Positions 9,142 through 15,997 of a stretch of DNA of 64,000 nucleotides are shown piece by piece. The first letter of the stretch is position 1, and every line of letters starts with the position of its first letter. The notes under the pieces were generated by a model. It was not told the DNA's origin and did not search any database. It was given only the letters and a program-made list of their open reading frames with translations. The stretch is from the IMG/VR virus record IMGVR_UViG_3300027833_000001, positions 62,001-126,000 of that record. One strand, given 5' to 3'. This stretch comes from a virus. The position numbers were made by a program, and so were the translations under genes.

Positions 9142-9903
9142 ATGCCAAGACGGAAATCCAATCTTCAGGTAATTTCTCAATACGAAGATGAAATTCGCCA
9201 ACCACAAAAAAATAATCAATGTAAAATTAAAATTGATGACCTAAAGACAATAGGAGCCCTTACAGAAACTCAAGGTCAATTCTTCTCTCAATATCCCACA
9301 GCAAACGCTATGTTACTACATGGTTCAGCTGGTACAGGGAAAACATTCATAGCCCTCTATAAAGCACTAGAGGAAGTTCTAGATCCATCCTCCAGATACG
9401 AAAAAGTAGTCATTATTCGCTCGGCTGTCCCTTCAAGAGATATCGGACATTTGCCTGGCGATCAAGATGAGAAAACTGCTGTCTATATGCAACCCTATAT
9501 TGATATGTGCGAAAAACTTATTCCACAAAAACGGGGTTCATTCAAGCGGCTCATCGAAAATAAGTATGTGGAGTGGATGATTACCTCGTTTGTTAGAGGC
9601 ATAACTCTGGATAACGCAGTCATAATTGTTGATGAGTGCCAGAATATGAACGATATGGAGCTAAATTCAGTCTTGACAAGAGTGGGAGATAATAGTAAGA
9701 TAGTGATGTGTGGAGATTTTAGGCAGTCTGACCTATATAAGAATAGAGCAGATAATTCTGGCTTACAGAAATTTATGGTAATTGCGGAAGATATGAAGTC
9801 TTTCAAAATAATGGAGTTCACACCAGACGATATTGTTAGGAGCAAGTTCGTCAAAGAGTATATTGTAGCAAGAATGCGCTATGAGGATGTGCATGGTAGC
9901 TAA
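9142..9903 (+). CDS. phoH: PhoH-like P-loop ATPase
   Basis: A 253-residue PhoH-family ATPase, very common in marine T4-like phages. Walker A is GSAGTGKT at residues 61-68 and Walker B ends in VDE with Asp164 and Glu165, followed by CQNM. The PhoH-specific IIRSAVPSRDIGHLPGD stretch is present. The family binds and hydrolyses ATP and has been linked to RNA metabolism and phosphate starvation, but its role in phages is not settled. The N-terminal 35 residues are basic and polar. AGGA lies about 8 bases ahead of the ATG. Confidence 0.92.
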   Translation: MPRRKSNLQVISQYEDEIRQPQKNNQCKIKIDDLKTIGALTETQGQFFSQYPTANAMLLHGSAGTGKTFIALYKALEEVLDPSSRYEKVVIIRSAVPSRDIGHLPGDQDEKTAVYMQPYIDMCEKLIPQKRGSFKRLIENKYVEWMITSFVRGITLDNAVIIVDECQNMNDMELNSVLTRVGDNSKIVMCGDFRQSDLYKNRADNSGLQKFMVIAEDMKSFKIMEFTPDDIVRSKFVKEYIVARMRYEDVHGS

Positions 9904-9952: not shown

Positions 9953-9981
9953 TTGACATTTGGCTATTGTTTTGCTATAAT
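9953..9981 (+). promoter_or_regulatory. consensus sigma70 promoter
   Basis: A perfect -35 hexamer TTGACA (9953-9958) and a perfect -10 hexamer TATAAT (9976-9981) are separated by exactly 17 bases. The ATG of the nuclease gene is at 9988, seven bases after the -10, so the predicted transcription start is at the initiation codon and the mRNA would be leaderless. The preceding 50 bases carry two CGTAAAAA direct repeats. Confidence 0.85.
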
Positions 9982-9987
9982 AGTCTT

Positions 9988-10650
9988 ATGAAAATATTTA
10001 ATCACTTAGATTTACCAGAACTTCCTAGTCTTTCCAGAAAGAATATTGATGGAAAGCGTATGTATTGTACCGATAGTGGTGATAGATATCCGTCTATCAC
10101 TACTGTCCTCTCCTGTCGTGGCAAGAAAGGTTTGTACGAATGGAGACAGCGTGTTGGATCAGTAGAAGCTGATAAAGTCAGTAAGAAAGCATCTACACGT
10201 GGTACCAAAATTCACAAGATATGTGAAGACTATATCAACAATGAACCTCTACCAGAACTGACCCTAGTCGAACAAGAGACTTGGAACACGTTTAGACCTG
10301 TTGTAGAGCGTATCGATAACATCCATCATGTAGAACCATTCATGTTCAGTAACCATCTTGGTATTGCTGGTCAGTGTGATTGTATTGCAGAGTTTGATGG
10401 TAAACTGTCTATTATAGATTTCAAGACCTCACGTAGACTCAAATCTCACAAAATGATATCAAGTTACTTTGCACAGTGTGCCGCGTATGCAATCATGTAC
10501 GAAGAGTTGACTGGCATTGCAATCAATAGAACTGTTATATTAATGGCAGTTGATGATGAGCAACCACAGATATTCATTGAGAAGCGTGATAATTATGTCG
10601 ATTATTTACTAGAAAGTAAACGTATGTTTGAAGCTGGTGAAATTGATTAA
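9988..10650 (+). CDS. PD-(D/E)XK nuclease (RecB/Cas4-like exonuclease)
   Basis: A 220-residue nuclease of the PD-(D/E)XK fold. Visible active-site elements are HKICEDY in the first half, GIAGQCDCIAEFDGK, then IIDFKTS (the D-x-K strand) and the later QCAAYAIMYEE helix, which is the QxxxY motif of the RecB/Cas4 group. Such enzymes degrade or trim DNA ends in recombination and host DNA breakdown. I chose ATG 9988; a TTG at 9967 in frame would lie inside the promoter spacer and is unlikely. It is the only gene in the window with a textbook host-type sigma70 promoter, so it may be expressed earlier than its neighbours. Confidence 0.8.
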   Translation: MKIFNHLDLPELPSLSRKNIDGKRMYCTDSGDRYPSITTVLSCRGKKGLYEWRQRVGSVEADKVSKKASTRGTKIHKICEDYINNEPLPELTLVEQETWNTFRPVVERIDNIHHVEPFMFSNHLGIAGQCDCIAEFDGKLSIIDFKTSRRLKSHKMISSYFAQCAAYAIMYEELTGIAINRTVILMAVDDEQPQIFIEKRDNYVDYLLESKRMFEAGEID

Positions 10651-10659
10651 TATGAGACT

Positions 10660-10667
10660 ACTAAATA
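10660..10667 (+). promoter_or_regulatory. late-promoter-like motif ahead of tmRNA
   Basis: ACTAAATA followed by GAACTA repeats the core and downstream bases of the gp25 late promoter (TATAAATAGAACTA). If used, transcription would begin near 10673, just before the acceptor piece of the tmRNA. The alternative is that the tmRNA is read from the upstream nuclease promoter. Confidence 0.45.
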
Positions 10668-10674
10668 GAACTAC

Positions 10675-10930
10675 TAGATTTGATGAAGCGTATATTAGGA
10701 AGTTTGGACGCGGGTGCAACTCCCGCCGCCTCCACCATAAGCACATTTTGACGAGTGTTCTTATGTTGGGGGCGAGTTAGGTTCGACAGGCAACTGAAGG
10801 TACGTGGAGAATCGGTGCGGAAGCTACCGTAAACGCAACAAAACCTATAAATGCCAACGATGAGGTATTTGCACTAGCCGCATAAGCTAGTCGGGGTATG
10901 GGATCCACCTTGTAATCCAACGGTCCCACT
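10675..10930 (+). ncRNA. ssrA: permuted two-piece tmRNA
   Basis: A transfer-messenger RNA gene in circularly permuted order. The acceptor piece comes first: T-stem GCGGG/CCCGC at 10710-10726 around a seven-base loop, then CGCCTCC, A and CCA (10735-10737). A short intervening segment (10738-10767) forms a hairpin. The coding piece then begins GGGGGCG (10768-10774), which pairs along its whole length with CGCCTCC (10727-10733) with one G-U, and continues with the conserved GGTTCGACAGG. The tag frame starts at the resume codon GCA 10835 and ends at TAA 10885, giving ATKPINANDEVFALAA; the ALAA end is the usual protease signal. The outer ends (about 10675 and 10930) are estimates. tmRNA rescues stalled ribosomes and tags the nascent chain for degradation. 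Confidence 0.92.
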
Positions 10931-10955
10931 TTTAAAGGCAAGAAGGATAAACTAT

Positions 10956-11534
10956 ATGCTTAAATCGACATTTATAACGATTAGCCCAATAATACTATTA
11001 TTATGTTTTCTTAATGGAGACAAAGAAGAAGTAAAACAGGAAGTCCAACTAAATGAGATTGAGATTGTAGAAGTAGTAGAACCATTACCACAAATTGATA
11101 AAAAAGAAATCCAATGTATGGCAATGAATATTTACCATGAAGCGAGGAACGAGTCTGAACTAGGACAAGTTGCTGTAGCCAATGTGACAATAAACAGAGC
11201 CAATTCTAAAAGATTTCCTGACACTATCTGTAGTGTTGTTTATCAAGCTAAAATGAGTAACTGGTGGAAACAAAATAAGAACAGAGATGTTCCTATAAGA
11301 AATGCTTGCCAGTTTAGCTGGTATTGTGATGGAAAATCTGATGTTGTACGTGAAGTTAAAGCGTATAAGGAAATAGAAAAGTTAGCAGAAGAAGTTCTGC
11401 AGGGATTACATAATGACAATACATATGGCAGTACACATTACCATGCACATTACGTTAATCCATACTGGGCAAGCAGTCTAGTGATGGTGTCACAAGTAGA
11501 CAGTCATATATTTTATATAAGTGGTAATAGATGA
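10956..11534 (+). CDS. SleB/CwlJ-type cell wall hydrolase
   Basis: A 192-residue peptidoglycan hydrolase of the Hydrolase_2 (SleB) family, a likely endolysin. A hydrophobic N-terminal segment (residues 5-19) acts as signal anchor or uncleaved signal, followed by an acidic linker (to about 48). The catalytic domain starts at about 52 with NIYHEARNES, where Glu62 matches the family's catalytic glutamate, then GQVAVANVTINR, CQFSWYCDG and the C-terminal SHYH-like THYHAHYV. The signal segment suggests export by the host Sec system. AAGAAGGAT precedes the ATG. The gp5 protein of this phage has no lysozyme domain, so this is the only lytic enzyme seen in the window. The stop overlaps the epimerase start. 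Confidence 0.85.
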   Translation: MLKSTFITISPIILLLCFLNGDKEEVKQEVQLNEIEIVEVVEPLPQIDKKEIQCMAMNIYHEARNESELGQVAVANVTINRANSKRFPDTICSVVYQAKMSNWWKQNKNRDVPIRNACQFSWYCDGKSDVVREVKAYKEIEKLAEEVLQGLHNDNTYGSTHYHAHYVNPYWASSLVMVSQVDSHIFYISGNR

Positions 11535-12421
11535 GTTGTTATATTGTTACCGGTGGTTGTGGATTTATAGGTTCGCACTTGGTGGAAGCATTACTAGCCA
11601 CTGGTAATAAAGTTGTTGTGATTGATGATATGCGATCTGGTTCCCATGTGGTCAAGGATGAGAATGTCCAGTATGTCACGGAAGAAGTTTGTAGCGTAGA
11701 CATTGAAGGAAGATATGATGGTATATTTCATTTTGCTAACACACCCCGAATTAGACTAGCATACGAAAAACCATTGTTGGCTCTACGAAATGGAATTGAT
11801 CCAACAATTCATATTGCGGAATTAGCAAGAAAGTTCAAATGCCCCTTGTATTTTGCCTCAAGTTCTAGTACAATATACTCTGATAGAACATCTAATCCTT
11901 ACACTCTTTCTAAAGCGGTAAGTCAAGATATTCTTGATATGTATTGGGAGTTGTATAATGTACCATCACACATACTATATTTTTACAATGTGTATGGACC
12001 AAGAGAAGCAGATTATGGAATTCATAGCACTGTTATCAGATCATTTAAGAATGCTATTCAAATAGAATCTCCATTGCACATATATGGTACAGGGAAGAAA
12101 ACTAGAGACTTTACACACGTTGATGATGTTGTTGATGGGTTACTAAACCTAATACTGATGAAGAAGAAGCCAAGACACGCCCACTTTGGAACAGGCAATC
12201 CTTATTCAATAAAAGAGATTGCAGATGCATTTGAGCATCCTGTAGTATATGAGTTTGACAAGAAAGGAGAAGCACAAGATACTATATGTGAAACCCCTTT
12301 CATAGTAGCAAACTATGATGTTATTGACTACATCAAATTTTGGAAACGAGAGTTTGATGAAGCAAAGAAGTATTTTGAAGTTAAAGAAAAATTACAGGAG
12401 ATAGATAGCCGAAATGCCTAA
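11531..12421 (+). CDS. NAD-dependent nucleotide-sugar epimerase/dehydratase
   Basis: A 296-residue extended short-chain dehydrogenase. Residues 8-14 are the NAD-binding GGCGFIG; the catalytic triad is suggested by the SSSS run (about 117-120), Tyr124 and Lys128 in YTLSK; GTGKKTRDFTHVDDVVDG is the typical C-terminal substrate-domain block. The group includes UDP-glucose 4-epimerase, GDP-mannose dehydratase and related enzymes, and the exact reaction cannot be read here. It is slightly short for the family. ATGA overlap couples it to the wall hydrolase. It probably feeds the same sugar pathway as the 1-8800 operon, although it is embedded among replication and late-transcription genes. Confidence 0.82.
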   Translation: MSCYIVTGGCGFIGSHLVEALLATGNKVVVIDDMRSGSHVVKDENVQYVTEEVCSVDIEGRYDGIFHFANTPRIRLAYEKPLLALRNGIDPTIHIAELARKFKCPLYFASSSSTIYSDRTSNPYTLSKAVSQDILDMYWELYNVPSHILYFYNVYGPREADYGIHSTVIRSFKNAIQIESPLHIYGTGKKTRDFTHVDDVVDGLLNLILMKKKPRHAHFGTGNPYSIKEIADAFEHPVVYEFDKKGEAQDTICETPFIVANYDVIDYIKFWKREFDEAKKYFEVKEKLQEIDSRNA

Positions 12422-12701
12422 AGTAGTAGATGTAACAGCGGATAAGAATTCAATGAATGACCCCTTTCTCATAACAAAGGAATTCAAATCATCAATCGCG
12501 TTCTCACAACATATAGAGAGACTGGCTATTAAGACTGGTAGTTTCATTGATGCGATTGTTGATTATTGTGGTGCGAAAGATATCGATGTAGAGAGTGTTA
12601 AGAAGTTACTATCACCTTCATTGAAAGAAAAAATCAAAGCAGAAGCAGAGAACCTAAACTTATTGAAAGGTGGTAATAAGACGCACAAGTTACCAATTTA
12701 A
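12414..12701 (+). CDS. 33: gp33-like late promoter transcription accessory protein
   Basis: A 95-residue protein resembling cyanophage gp33, the co-activator that bridges RNA polymerase and the sliding clamp at T4-type late promoters. The recognisable part is FSQHIERLAIKTGSFIDAI (about residues 32-50), followed by the YCGAKDIDVESVKKLLSPSL helix and LKEKIKAEAENLNLLK. In T4, genes 33, 59 and 32 are neighbours, and the same order is found here, which strengthens the call. T4 gp33 is about 112 residues. The gene overlaps the epimerase end by 8 bases. Its presence agrees with the TATAAATA motifs found through the window. Confidence 0.75.
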   Translation: MPKVVDVTADKNSMNDPFLITKEFKSSIAFSQHIERLAIKTGSFIDAIVDYCGAKDIDVESVKKLLSPSLKEKIKAEAENLNLLKGGNKTHKLPI

Positions 12702-12702
12702 A

Positions 12703-13284
12703 ATGACCGAACCATTTGAAGTCTATAAACTTTACCTTGCACTGAAGTTACATTTCACAAAGAAAGACTATGACATTACCAAAACTAAAGGTGCTGTTAA
12801 GGTAAAGCAAGAAACATTCCTGAAACGTAAAGACCTTACTGCTATACGAAAGTTAGCTAGAGATTACAAACGGAGTGATATAATAGACTTCTTAGTAGCC
12901 AACTTTGTTAGTGGTGAAAAATGGGGTGGGTTATTTGATGTTGAAGCGAATAGAATATACAAGCAATGGTTAATCAGAAAAGGCAAGAGGGATTATACAT
13001 TCCAACAAGATGTGGAAGTAATCTTATTAGAAATGGAGAAGAGTGAAATTAAATCACCTTTTTATGAAAAAAGTTCTAAACACCCCTTGACTTTTAGATT
13101 ATACTATGCTAAAATGATCACAATTGAAACTCTTGTTATATTAGATAAGATTTTTAATTATGTAGATAGCGAAACGGATGATGTTTTTATTAGTGATTTA
13201 TCATTGATAATAAAGAAATATCGACCGTTCGTTAGAGTCACAGACAAAATGAAGTCTGCTGGCAAGTCCTTGGAAGTAGTATAA
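12703..13284 (+). CDS. 59: gp59-like loader of replicative helicase
   Basis: A 193-residue basic protein resembling T4 gp59, which loads the gp41 helicase onto gp32-coated forks. The N-terminal FEVYKLYLALKLHFTKKDYD (residues 4-23) and FLKRKDLTAIRKLARDY, DIIDFLVANFVSG blocks fit the family, and many Lys/Arg residues fit its DNA binding. T4 gp59 is about 217 residues. I chose ATG 12703, one base after the gp33 stop; a GTG at 12670 in frame would overlap gp33 and adds an unconserved tail. The stop codon is part of the next late-promoter motif. Confidence 0.78.
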   Translation: MTEPFEVYKLYLALKLHFTKKDYDITKTKGAVKVKQETFLKRKDLTAIRKLARDYKRSDIIDFLVANFVSGEKWGGLFDVEANRIYKQWLIRKGKRDYTFQQDVEVILLEMEKSEIKSPFYEKSSKHPLTFRLYYAKMITIETLVILDKIFNYVDSETDDVFISDLSLIIKKYRPFVRVTDKMKSAGKSLEVV

Positions 13285-13287
13285 ATA
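13280..13287 (+). promoter_or_regulatory. T4-type late promoter (TATAAATA)
   Basis: A perfect TATAAATA that contains the TAA stop of the gp59 gene. It lies 15 bases before the ATG of the next small gene, and GGAG (13288-13291) directly follows. It would start a late transcript for the small protein and gp32. Confidence 0.55.
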
Positions 13288-13302
13288 GGAGTATACTGAA
13301 AG

Positions 13303-13494
13303 ATGGGCAAGAAACGTAATCGCACATTTCAGTGTGGTGACGAAGAGAAGCGTGTTCGTAGAGTACCAAGTGCGGGTAAAACCAAACTTGACAAATACAA
13401 GCACTTATTATATGATGGAATATATGATGATGAGGAACTATATGACGAGTTTTGTTATCATACAGAAAAAATACATCGCAAATTAAGTACATAA
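13303..13494 (+). CDS. small basic/acidic hypothetical protein
   Basis: A 63-residue protein that I cannot assign. The first half is strongly basic (GKKRNRTFQCGDEEKRVRRV) and the second half is acidic and tyrosine-rich (YDGIYDDEELYDEFCYH). Such a split charge is common in small phage proteins that bind nucleic acid or host proteins. It lies between gp59 and gp32, behind a late promoter motif. The GGAG at 13288 is 11 bases from the ATG, slightly far for a Shine-Dalgarno. Confidence 0.6.
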   Translation: MGKKRNRTFQCGDEEKRVRRVPSAGKTKLDKYKHLLYDGIYDDEELYDEFCYHTEKIHRKLST

Positions 13495-13514
13495 CGTAAA
13501 CAATGGAGAAAAAT

Positions 13515-14432
13515 ATGTCTTTTAATTCACTTTCTGACCTCCGCAATTCCCGCGGCAACTTTAATTCTTTAATGAAAGAAGTTGAGAAAATGTCCACTAC
13601 AACCACAACACAATCCCGTGATGATGGTCGTGAGTGGAAACCCACAGTCGATCAAGCTGGTAATGGCTATGCTGTTATTCGATTCCTACCTGCACCAAAG
13701 GGAGAAGATTTCCCATGGGCAAGAATCTGGAATCATGGCTTTCAAGGCTCCACTGGCAAGTGGTATATCGAAAACTCTCTGACTACTCTTGGTCAACAAG
13801 ATCCAGTCTCTGAGTTAAACACCGAACTATGGAATAGTGGTGTTGATTCCGATAAAGAAATTGCACGTAAGCAGAAGCGTAGGCTTGCATACTATGCAAA
13901 CATTGTGGTTGTTAAAGATGCATCTAACCCTGCAAATGAAGGACAAGTATTCCTTTATAAGTTTGGTAAGAAAATCTTTGATAAGATTTCCGAAGCAATG
14001 AAGCCAGAGTTTGAGGACGAAACTCCTCTAAACCCATTCGACTTCTGGGAAGGTGTCAACTTTAAACTGAAGATTCGTCAAGTAGAGGGTTACCGAAACT
14101 ATGACAAGTCTGAGTTCGAAGCGACTACAACACCAGTAGCAGATAGTGATGACGCTATCGAAGCTATCTGGACAAAGCAGTATTCACTCGCTGAAATTAC
14201 TGATCCTAAGAACTTCAAATCATATGAAGCATTGCAAACTAAATTGCAACAAGTGCTTGGTGGAAGGGCTGTCCCTGCACCAGCGGCAAGTGTATCTTCA
14301 CAGACAGGTGATGTCGAAGATGATCTATTTGTAAAGAGTAACGGAGCAACTGATCCTGCCACAACTGTGGAATCAGCATCTACGGATGATGATGCATTAT
14401 CTTACTTTTCGAAGTTAGCCGATGAGGACTAA
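13515..14432 (+). CDS. 32: gp32-like single-stranded DNA-binding protein
   Basis: A 305-residue homologue of T4 gp32, which coats single-stranded DNA in replication and recombination. The N-terminal SLSDLRNSRGNFNSLMKEVEK is the cooperative-binding arm. The core has WYIENSLTTLG, a basic RKQKRRLAYYAN, FLYKFGKKIFDKI and NPFDFWEGVNFKLKI. The C-terminal 40 residues are acidic (DDDALSYFSKLADED), as expected for the protein-interaction tail. There is not a single cysteine, so the zinc site of T4 gp32 is absent. ATG 13515 has GGAGAAAA just upstream; the ATG at 13503 overlaps that site. A terminator follows the stop. Confidence 0.92.
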   Translation: MSFNSLSDLRNSRGNFNSLMKEVEKMSTTTTTQSRDDGREWKPTVDQAGNGYAVIRFLPAPKGEDFPWARIWNHGFQGSTGKWYIENSLTTLGQQDPVSELNTELWNSGVDSDKEIARKQKRRLAYYANIVVVKDASNPANEGQVFLYKFGKKIFDKISEAMKPEFEDETPLNPFDFWEGVNFKLKIRQVEGYRNYDKSEFEATTTPVADSDDAIEAIWTKQYSLAEITDPKNFKSYEALQTKLQQVLGGRAVPAPAASVSSQTGDVEDDLFVKSNGATDPATTVESASTDDDALSYFSKLADED

Positions 14433-14497: not shown

Positions 14498-15997
14498 ATG
14501 CACGGAATAATATTTGGTGGCTTGTTAGAAGATTTGGGAATGGACTCCAGTATGGTAGCTATTCGTAGATCATCTGGTGCACATAAGATTGCTACCTTTT
14601 TACGAAATCATAATTATGATATTGAGGTTGTTGATTATATTCATCGATGGTCTTTAGATCAATTAAAAGAATTTACAATAAAGAAAGTTGATACAGAAAC
14701 TCTTTTCTTTGGCTTTAGTTCTACGTTTATGATTAGCACACCAGAGTTGATTGAGTTTGTTCATTGGCTCAAACATAGATACCCCAATATCAAACAAGTT
14801 ATCGGTAGTCAAAATCAAACAATGAAAGAACTACCATGTGACTGGTATATTTACGGGTATGGTGAGTACGCTATACTAGCACTCTTAGACCACTTTAAGG
14901 GAGGACCAGAGCCGATACACGAAGGAAATCTTATAAATGCATATACTAACTACAAGGCATTTCCTAAAGAAGACCTTTCTGTTCAATATACAGAGAGAGA
15001 TTTTATCCACGACAGGGAAATACTACTGTTAGAGATGGCAAGAGGATGTAAGTTCAAATGCTCTTTCTGTAGTTTTCCTATTCTTGGTGTGAAAGATGAT
15101 CATACAACCTCAGAACAATATTTCTACGATGAGATGTCGAGAAACTATGACAAATGGGGTACGACTCATTACATGGTTCTAGATGAAACATTCAATGATT
15201 CTAGTGAAAAGATTGCGAAGTATGCGGCTGCCTGTAGAAAACTTCCATTCCAACCTAAGATGACTGCTTATATTAGAGCAGACTTAATGGTATCTAGAAT
15301 ACAAGATTGGGACAACTTGATAGATATGGGAATCACTTCTCACTTTTATGGTGTTGAGTCTATGCATTTACCTTCAGCTAAATCAATTGGCAAAGGAATG
15401 AACAGTGGGCGAATACAAGATGGCTTGCTTCATGTAGATGAGTACTTCAGAAAGAATGCTGGCTTTTATAAAGGACATATATCTTTGATTGCTGGTTTAC
15501 CACATGAGACATTAGAAACTCTCAGAGAAACAAAAGACTGGTTAGAAAAGTATTGGATAGAAAATAGTTATCATATGAATCTATTGATGATTAAAGATTT
15601 AGATAAAAATGGCGCGTCACTGAATCATAACTCTGCTATGGATAAAGATTGGAAAAAATTTGGATACGAGAAAACTACTTTTCCAGAAGAGTGTGATATT
15701 GATTGGAGTAAAAGTTATAATCCATATTTCAAAAATCTCTATGAGTACGTGGATAAGTATGAATACTATTTGAAATGGAAAAATGAAAATTTAAGTCTTT
15801 ACGAGGTTACTAAATTTGCAGTTGAAGAATGGAGTCAAGCTAAACTTAAAAATGGTATTGATCCGTTTATGTATGATAAGTTCTTTATTGATCCCACAGT
15901 TAAGTGGAGTGACTTTGCTGAATTAAATCATTTAGAAAGAAGAACAGACCACATCAATGCTCATATAGATGACTATATAAGTAAGAAATTATCCTAG
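14498..15997 (+). CDS. radical SAM protein with B12-binding-like N-terminal domain
   Basis: A 499-residue iron-sulfur enzyme. The N-terminal 150 residues have the shape of a cobalamin-binding-type domain (GAHKIATFLRNHNYDIEVVDY, then VIGSQNQTMKELPCDWYIYGYGEYA) but lack the DxHxxG cobalt ligand motif, as in many such radical SAM proteins. The radical SAM cluster motif CKFKCSFC gives Cys184, Cys188 and Cys191. GVESMHLPSAKSIGKGMN and HISLIAGLPHETLETL follow, as in the Elp3/MiaB-like SAM-binding barrel. The reaction is unknown. It lies between a terminator and a converging minus-strand operon, whose last gene overlaps it by 4 bases, so it needs its own promoter, which I could not identify. Confidence 0.82.
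   Translation: MHGIIFGGLLEDLGMDSSMVAIRRSSGAHKIATFLRNHNYDIEVVDYIHRWSLDQLKEFTIKKVDTETLFFGFSSTFMISTPELIEFVHWLKHRYPNIKQVIGSQNQTMKELPCDWYIYGYGEYAILALLDHFKGGPEPIHEGNLINAYTNYKAFPKEDLSVQYTERDFIHDREILLLEMARGCKFKCSFCSFPILGVKDDHTTSEQYFYDEMSRNYDKWGTTHYMVLDETFNDSSEKIAKYAAACRKLPFQPKMTAYIRADLMVSRIQDWDNLIDMGITSHFYGVESMHLPSAKSIGKGMNSGRIQDGLLHVDEYFRKNAGFYKGHISLIAGLPHETLETLRETKDWLEKYWIENSYHMNLLMIKDLDKNGASLNHNSAMDKDWKKFGYEKTTFPEECDIDWSKSYNPYFKNLYEYVDKYEYYLKWKNENLSLYEVTKFAVEEWSQAKLKNGIDPFMYDKFFIDPTVKWSDFAELNHLERRTDHINAHIDDYISKKLS

Follow-up and report, generated by a model that had tools for sequence, protein, structure and literature searches.

A phage-borne, circularly permuted tmRNA gene at a conserved locus of T4-like viruses

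Introduction

Two-piece tmRNA genes (ssrA) have already been published for two cultured phages, Melnitz, which infects an OM43 host, and Mosig, which infects a SAR11 host (PMC9004378). Of 133 unique phage tmRNA structures, the same study suggested 53 as two-piece genes, with 50 of the 53 being marine or aquatic; it also gave a count of 17 of 47 for Melnitz-like contigs and proposed roles similar to ribosome recycling in infection. A database with 79 bacteriophage tmRNA sequences is also available, along with a description of the Rfam model RF04321 (PMC11915505). In both Melnitz and Mosig, the gene order runs from a PD-(D/E)XK nuclease through one or two small genes to the annotated SsrA and gp33, after which gp59, a flavin-dependent thymidylate synthase, and an ssDNA-binding protein follow in varying order. 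The two-piece tmRNA described here, borne by a large, marine-type T4-like phage, is thus not a first case, and its kind has already been described. It lies in a 64,000-base stretch of DNA (hereafter the window), corresponding to positions 62001-126000 in a virus record that spans 165,127 bases and whose T4-like nature is indicated by homologues of portal, sheath, gp33, gp59, and gp32.

Results

The locus was identified as a permuted tmRNA by two covariance models from Rfam 15, namely RF04321 (tmRNA_permuted), which matches over its full length at 10677-10885 (121 bits, cut-off 47, E = 4.2e-23), and RF01850 (beta_tmRNA), which matches at 10629-10934 (118 bits, cut-off 84, E = 2.7e-35). The one gene that ARAGORN calls in the window is a permuted “tmRNA*” spanning 10645-10976, with the tag ANDEVFALAA. 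These three results confirm the first-pass annotation of this DNA, which had placed a permuted two-piece tmRNA at 10675-10930, and its outline of the gene holds as well: the acceptor piece lies upstream of the coding piece (T-arm, acceptor strand, and CCA at 10710-10737, coding piece from 10768), the two acceptor halves (10727-10733 and 10768-10774) pair at seven of seven positions, and the 30 bases between them (10738-10767) contain the hairpin it described (Table 1). It had also pointed to alphaproteobacteria and cyanobacteria as the known bearers of permuted tmRNA and called for a search with both models. The alphaproteobacterial model RF01849 scores the locus above its cut-off (85.9 bits) and the cyanobacterial model remains under its own (27.2 bits). 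Betaproteobacteria, which top the ranking beta (118 bits), alpha, cyano, had been left out.

Table 1. Features of the permuted tmRNA gene and neighboring genes (window coordinates)
Feature	Position	Strand	Basis
Acceptor piece (conserved part)	10677..10737	+	RF04321 alignment; conserved in 35 syntenic viral copies
P2 helix, 3' strand	within acceptor piece	+	RF04321 alignment
T-arm	10710-10726	+	5/5 pairs
Acceptor 3' strand CGCCTCC	10727-10733	+	7/7 pairs with GGGGGCG
A73 + CCA (ACCA)	10734-10737 (CCA 10735-10737)	+	encoded in DNA
Intervening segment, 30 bases	10738..10767	+	MFE fold, pairing across relatives
Hairpin inside intervening segment	10738-10744 with 10755-10763	+	MFE fold
Coding piece	10768..10930	+	RF04321 and RF01850 alignments
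Acceptor 5' strand GGGGGCG (carries G3-U70)	10768-10774	+	read from sequence
D-loop-like TTCGAC, P2 5' strand, 3' hairpins	within coding piece	+	RF04321/RF01850 alignments
First hairpin of coding piece	10813-10829	+	RF04321/RF01850 alignments
Tag frame ANDEVFALAA-stop	10853..10885	+	ARAGORN, Rfam alignment, sequence alignment of relatives
Tag-end hairpin CTAGC/GCTAG, stop codon in loop	10874..10890 (10874-10878 with 10886-10890)	+	sequence, MFE
3' hairpin TGGGATC/GGTCCCA, CCTTGTAATCCAA loop	10899..10928 (10899-10905 with 10922-10928)	+	RF01850 alignment, MFE
PhoH-like protein, upstream syntenic marker	9142..9903	+	PHROG 170, E 9.6e-81
PD-(D/E)XK exonuclease, directly upstream of tmRNA	9967..10650	+	Pfam PDDEXK_1; PHROG 298, E 1.9e-67
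Cell-wall hydrolase (endolysin-like), directly downstream of tmRNA	10956..11534	+	Pfam Hydrolase_2, E 3.3e-25; PHROG 938
T4-type gp33 late-transcription regulator, gp59 helicase loader, gp32 ssDNA-binding protein	12414..14432	+	PHROG 254, 269, 224

Within the acceptor stem, the third pair (position 3:70) is the G-U that serves as alanine identity signal. The intervening segment is presumably excised in maturation, and its hairpin would prolong the acceptor stem in the precursor. Conservation in close relatives fades near 10930, and the 3' end of the coding piece was hence set at about this position. The tag-end hairpin is kept in relatives as CTAGC/GTTAG, and the 3' hairpin takes the form TGGCCC/GGGCCA in relative L330. 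A candidate pseudoknot between the CCTTG loop and a downstream CAAG was discarded, as it showed no conservation in L318-L330.

Given that the fold energy of the full gene is not exceptional compared to shuffles (z = -1.17), pairing was tested across relatives, and the structural evidence comes from family scores and covariation instead of fold energy. To this end, we took 35 copies that follow the same nuclease gene, aligned them on sequence alone, and counted the Rfam pairs and the hairpin of the first-pass annotation. All 245 cells of the acceptor stem are paired, and three of its seven pairs show compensatory change; the T-arm is likewise 100% paired, with compensatory change in four of five, although the copies were picked with ARAGORN, which seeks acceptor and T-arm pairs and thus introduces some selection bias for these two helices. 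This selection affects to a lesser degree the 3:70 G-U, which never varies among the 35 syntenic copies, and the P2 segments, two of which are largely paired and include compensatory changes (10702-10706/10787-10791, 94.9% of cells; 10678-10681/10809-10812, 97.0%). The middle P2 segment of the Rfam alignment (10690-10693/10800-10803) is unsupported across the 35 copies, with 36.7% of cells paired, and the P2 helix linking both pieces, by which membership in RF04321 is judged, is supported in the two outer segments. For the structure as a whole, the covariation score was 0.488, compared to a shuffled mean of 0.164 and to values of at most 0.110 when the pairing was slid.

The hairpin of the intervening segment is paired in 85.9% of cells, with changes on both sides in six of seven pairs and a covariation score higher than in all 500 shuffles; when slid by +2 it is still 78.7% paired, which makes its support weaker than that of the acceptor stem. 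Since the consensus of the beta model includes similar CAUU...GUGUU ends around this segment, such a hairpin is probably a general trait of these precursors. In the permuted tmRNA genes of two other loci (L233 and L270), the intervening segment is apparently 11 bases long, compared to about 30-150 bases in most others.

The tag is encoded at 10853-10885 (GCC AAC GAT GAG GTA TTT GCA CTA GCC GCA TAA), from the resume codon GCC at 10853 to the TAA stop at 10883-10885. The earlier reading, in which the phage encodes a permuted tmRNA together with a tag of its own, is supported, although the peptide it proposed was six residues too long: its ATKPIN portion is in-frame sequence 5' of the resume codon, and was rejected as tag start because a start at GCC is given alike by ARAGORN, by the Rfam alignment, and by the conserved TAAATGCNAACGA block. 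The pattern NDEVFALAA was found in 102 viral contigs, 80 of which include an ARAGORN-called permuted tmRNA (77 with ANDEVFALAA), vs a single cellular contig among 84,980 cellular genomes; these collections are unequal in size and redundancy and the counts come without control tags, and ANDEVFALAA as a virus-only tag is a lead, not proof. The sole cellular match, on a 6.7-kb contig with what we read as Hsp20- and MazG-like frames, is probably itself a phage contig. It belongs to a Flavobacteriales assembly with three permuted tmRNAs, two of them adjoining homologues of genes of the present phage. In this assembly (G001, a metagenome of the species genome collection, which includes L084, DQKQ01000288.1), all three tmRNA genes score above cut-off and the adjoining phage homologues are those of the nuclease and endolysin; G001 probably holds several phage contigs.

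Reading frames of the syntenic copies all end in “..AA” tags. Within one supported group of the nuclease tree, ANDEVFALAA gives way to ANDDAFLLAA, ANDNFAYDDYALAA, ANDNQAYALAA, and others, a change compatible both with drift and with tmRNA replacement at a fixed site. Among close relatives at the same locus (L321-L332), alpha-type ANDNFAYDDYALAA, short ANDNQAYALAA, and beta-type ANDEVFALAA or ANDDVYLLAA tags were all observed, i.e., the tag class shifts within one viral lineage. Valine at tag position 5 was considered as a viral norm and rejected, as Q, R, K, L, A, V, T, S, M, and I all occur there in viral permuted tags. One group of viral permuted tmRNAs (L085-L185) has a longer tag, ANAANDEVFALAA or ANASNDEVFALAA.

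The genes around the tmRNA are arranged in the order PhoH, PD-(D/E)XK exonuclease, tmRNA, cell-wall hydrolase, epimerase-like, gp33, gp59, and gp32. A radical SAM protein next to gp32 (14498-15997) was recognized by Pfam (E = 1.6e-8) and had no PHROG match. We evaluated the conservation of this locus through a search of viral contigs anchored on the nuclease protein and blind to tmRNA, from which the best 80 loci were taken. Of these, 58 have a permuted tmRNA following the nuclease, often within about 40 bases, while part of the other 22 loci run into contig ends. Pairwise distances between tmRNAs and between nucleases were correlated (Mantel r = 0.47, Spearman; maximum over 999 permutations, 0.16), in keeping with inheritance that is mainly vertical, and from these comparisons the locus looks to have been inherited largely vertically while the tag changes. 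The tmRNA represents an accessory gene, as some relatives show none near the nuclease, and cyanophage S-SZBM1 encodes PhoH, the nuclease, and gp33, with no tmRNA annotated in between. An attachment-site remnant was also considered and rejected, since the gene is complete and has syntenic counterparts in cultured phages. Outside this locus, Alcaligenes phage vB_Af_QDWS595 (Schitoviridae, N4-like) has an unannotated permuted tmRNA (111 bits, tag called ANDNVYAAAA) in an array of eight tRNA genes.

Neither the record nor any of ten large relatives yielded an SmpB gene. Host factors would hence be needed, consistent with the first-pass annotation, in which the processing enzymes were expected to be host-derived. 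One tRNA-Arg(TCT) is encoded in the rest of the record outside the window, as surveyed up to its last 127 bases, and no glutamine riboswitch was detected at Rfam cut-offs in the window and nearly all of the remaining record. In a search for a standard promoter and terminator, the count of promoter-like sequences was near shuffle expectation, and no terminator was found.

Discussion

Based on its anatomy, family membership, conserved structure, and conserved locus, we consider it very probable that this is a working tmRNA gene, phage-borne and circularly permuted, whose product is a functional tagging RNA, and we infer that this RNA is expressed, processed, charged, and of benefit to the phage. 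Established tmRNA biology underlies the processing, alanine charging, SmpB/EF-Tu delivery, tagging, and LAA degradation steps of the proposed mechanism. The precursor transcript would include, in order, the acceptor piece, the intervening segment, and the coding piece, and the 30-base segment would be excised by host tRNA-maturation enzymes, i.e., RNase P at the 5' end of the coding piece and 3' tRNA-processing nucleases at the CCA. The two resulting RNAs would be held together via the acceptor and P2 helices, charged by the host alanyl-tRNA synthetase through G3-U70, and carried, with the help of the SmpB and EF-Tu of the host, to ribosomes that have stalled on broken mRNAs. The stalled peptide would then gain ANDEVFALAA, with its terminal LAA degron read by ClpXP/ClpAP, and the most likely benefit to the phage would be ribosome recycling in infection while host RNA and DNA are broken down. 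Both the score and the tag are beta-like and point to a betaproteobacterium-like host; the tag alone, however, is a poor host marker, because relatives carry alpha-like tags at the same locus.

Instead of tagging, the RNA could mainly act as a competitor or regulator of the host tmRNA, e.g., through SmpB titration. A CDS-less phage tmRNA (from DS6A) inhibits the endogenous tmRNA in E. coli (PMC11915505), and with no SmpB of its own the phage RNA would share that of the host. Yet the tag frame is intact, and the syntenic copies keep readable, differing tags that a pure decoy would not need, which makes this explanation improbable. We regard as still less probable that the gene is a decaying relic captured from a host and devoid of present function: its accessory nature, including the S-SZBM1 interval, would fit such a decay, but compensatory changes across a deep set of viral copies argue strongly against it, and the conserved resume and stop codons and the conserved position also count against it. 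Misfiling of a bacterial contig or prophage junction as viral deserves almost no credence: tmRNA genes often serve as integration sites, the short T-arm/acceptor region has many phage-database matches that resemble prophage attachment-site fragments, and standard-form NDENYALAA matches in IMG/VR look similar, but here a complete gene sits among phage replication genes of a 165-kb T4-like genome, at the same spot as in Melnitz and Mosig, with no bacterial flank seen beside it in the window.

A functional tagging RNA thus remains the preferred reading, and with this gene an uncultured lineage joins the phages known to have a two-piece tmRNA. Beyond what was already reported (PMC9004378), the present analysis indicates largely vertical inheritance with a changing tag, and links one tag to about 100 viral contigs vs one cellular contig that is probably viral. 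The gene appears to have resided at a single locus of aquatic T4-like viruses for a long time, its tags changing along the lineage. A more far-reaching possibility, which we consider unlikely, is that an aquatic T4-like clade vertically inherits a tmRNA with a virus-tuned tag unlike cellular ones, and that handling of tagged proteins is specified by the virus. If so, another adaptor or protease preference, for instance, might prevail in infected cells. Whether phages routinely supply ribosome rescue, and whether there is a reason for the difference between viral and host tags, can now be tested.

One-piece phage tmRNAs, such as those of mycobacteriophage cluster C1, have the standard gene order. 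They are likewise phage-encoded, as in phage Lethe (PMC13097058). Among bacterial families, betaproteobacterial RF01850 provides the best lineage score, a measure of resemblance only, along with an NDE.FALAA tag type, similar tag-end and 3' hairpins, and a CCUUGU loop in the latter, the CCTTGTAATCCAA loop found here resembling the beta CCUUGUUACC loop; it differs in that the present gene lacks the terminal hairpin of the model and is encoded by a virus. Alphaproteobacterial RF01849 shares gene order and tRNA-like domain with this locus, but scores below beta, and the alpha-type ANDN... tag, absent here, is present in syntenic relatives, e.g., L323 and L325. Compared to Melnitz (MZ577097) and Mosig (MT647606), tags differ, with ANDNYVPVDYALAA in Melnitz and GEDNFALAA in Mosig (ARAGORN call) vs the beta-like ANDEVFALAA here; endolysin-like and epimerase-like genes separate the tmRNA from gp33 in the present record; and both phages were published with a glutamine riboswitch, for which the record has no match above the Rfam cut-off. 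These two phages share with the present record a permuted tmRNA in a T4-like, Kyanoviridae-type myovirus, in a region extending from the PD-(D/E)XK nuclease to gp33/gp59/gp32. The nuclease is 42% identical to that of Mosig, the portal shares about 54% identity with its Melnitz, Mosig, and cyanophage counterparts, and Melnitz also has the same GGGGGCG/CGCCTCC acceptor stem and a tRNA-Arg(TCT).
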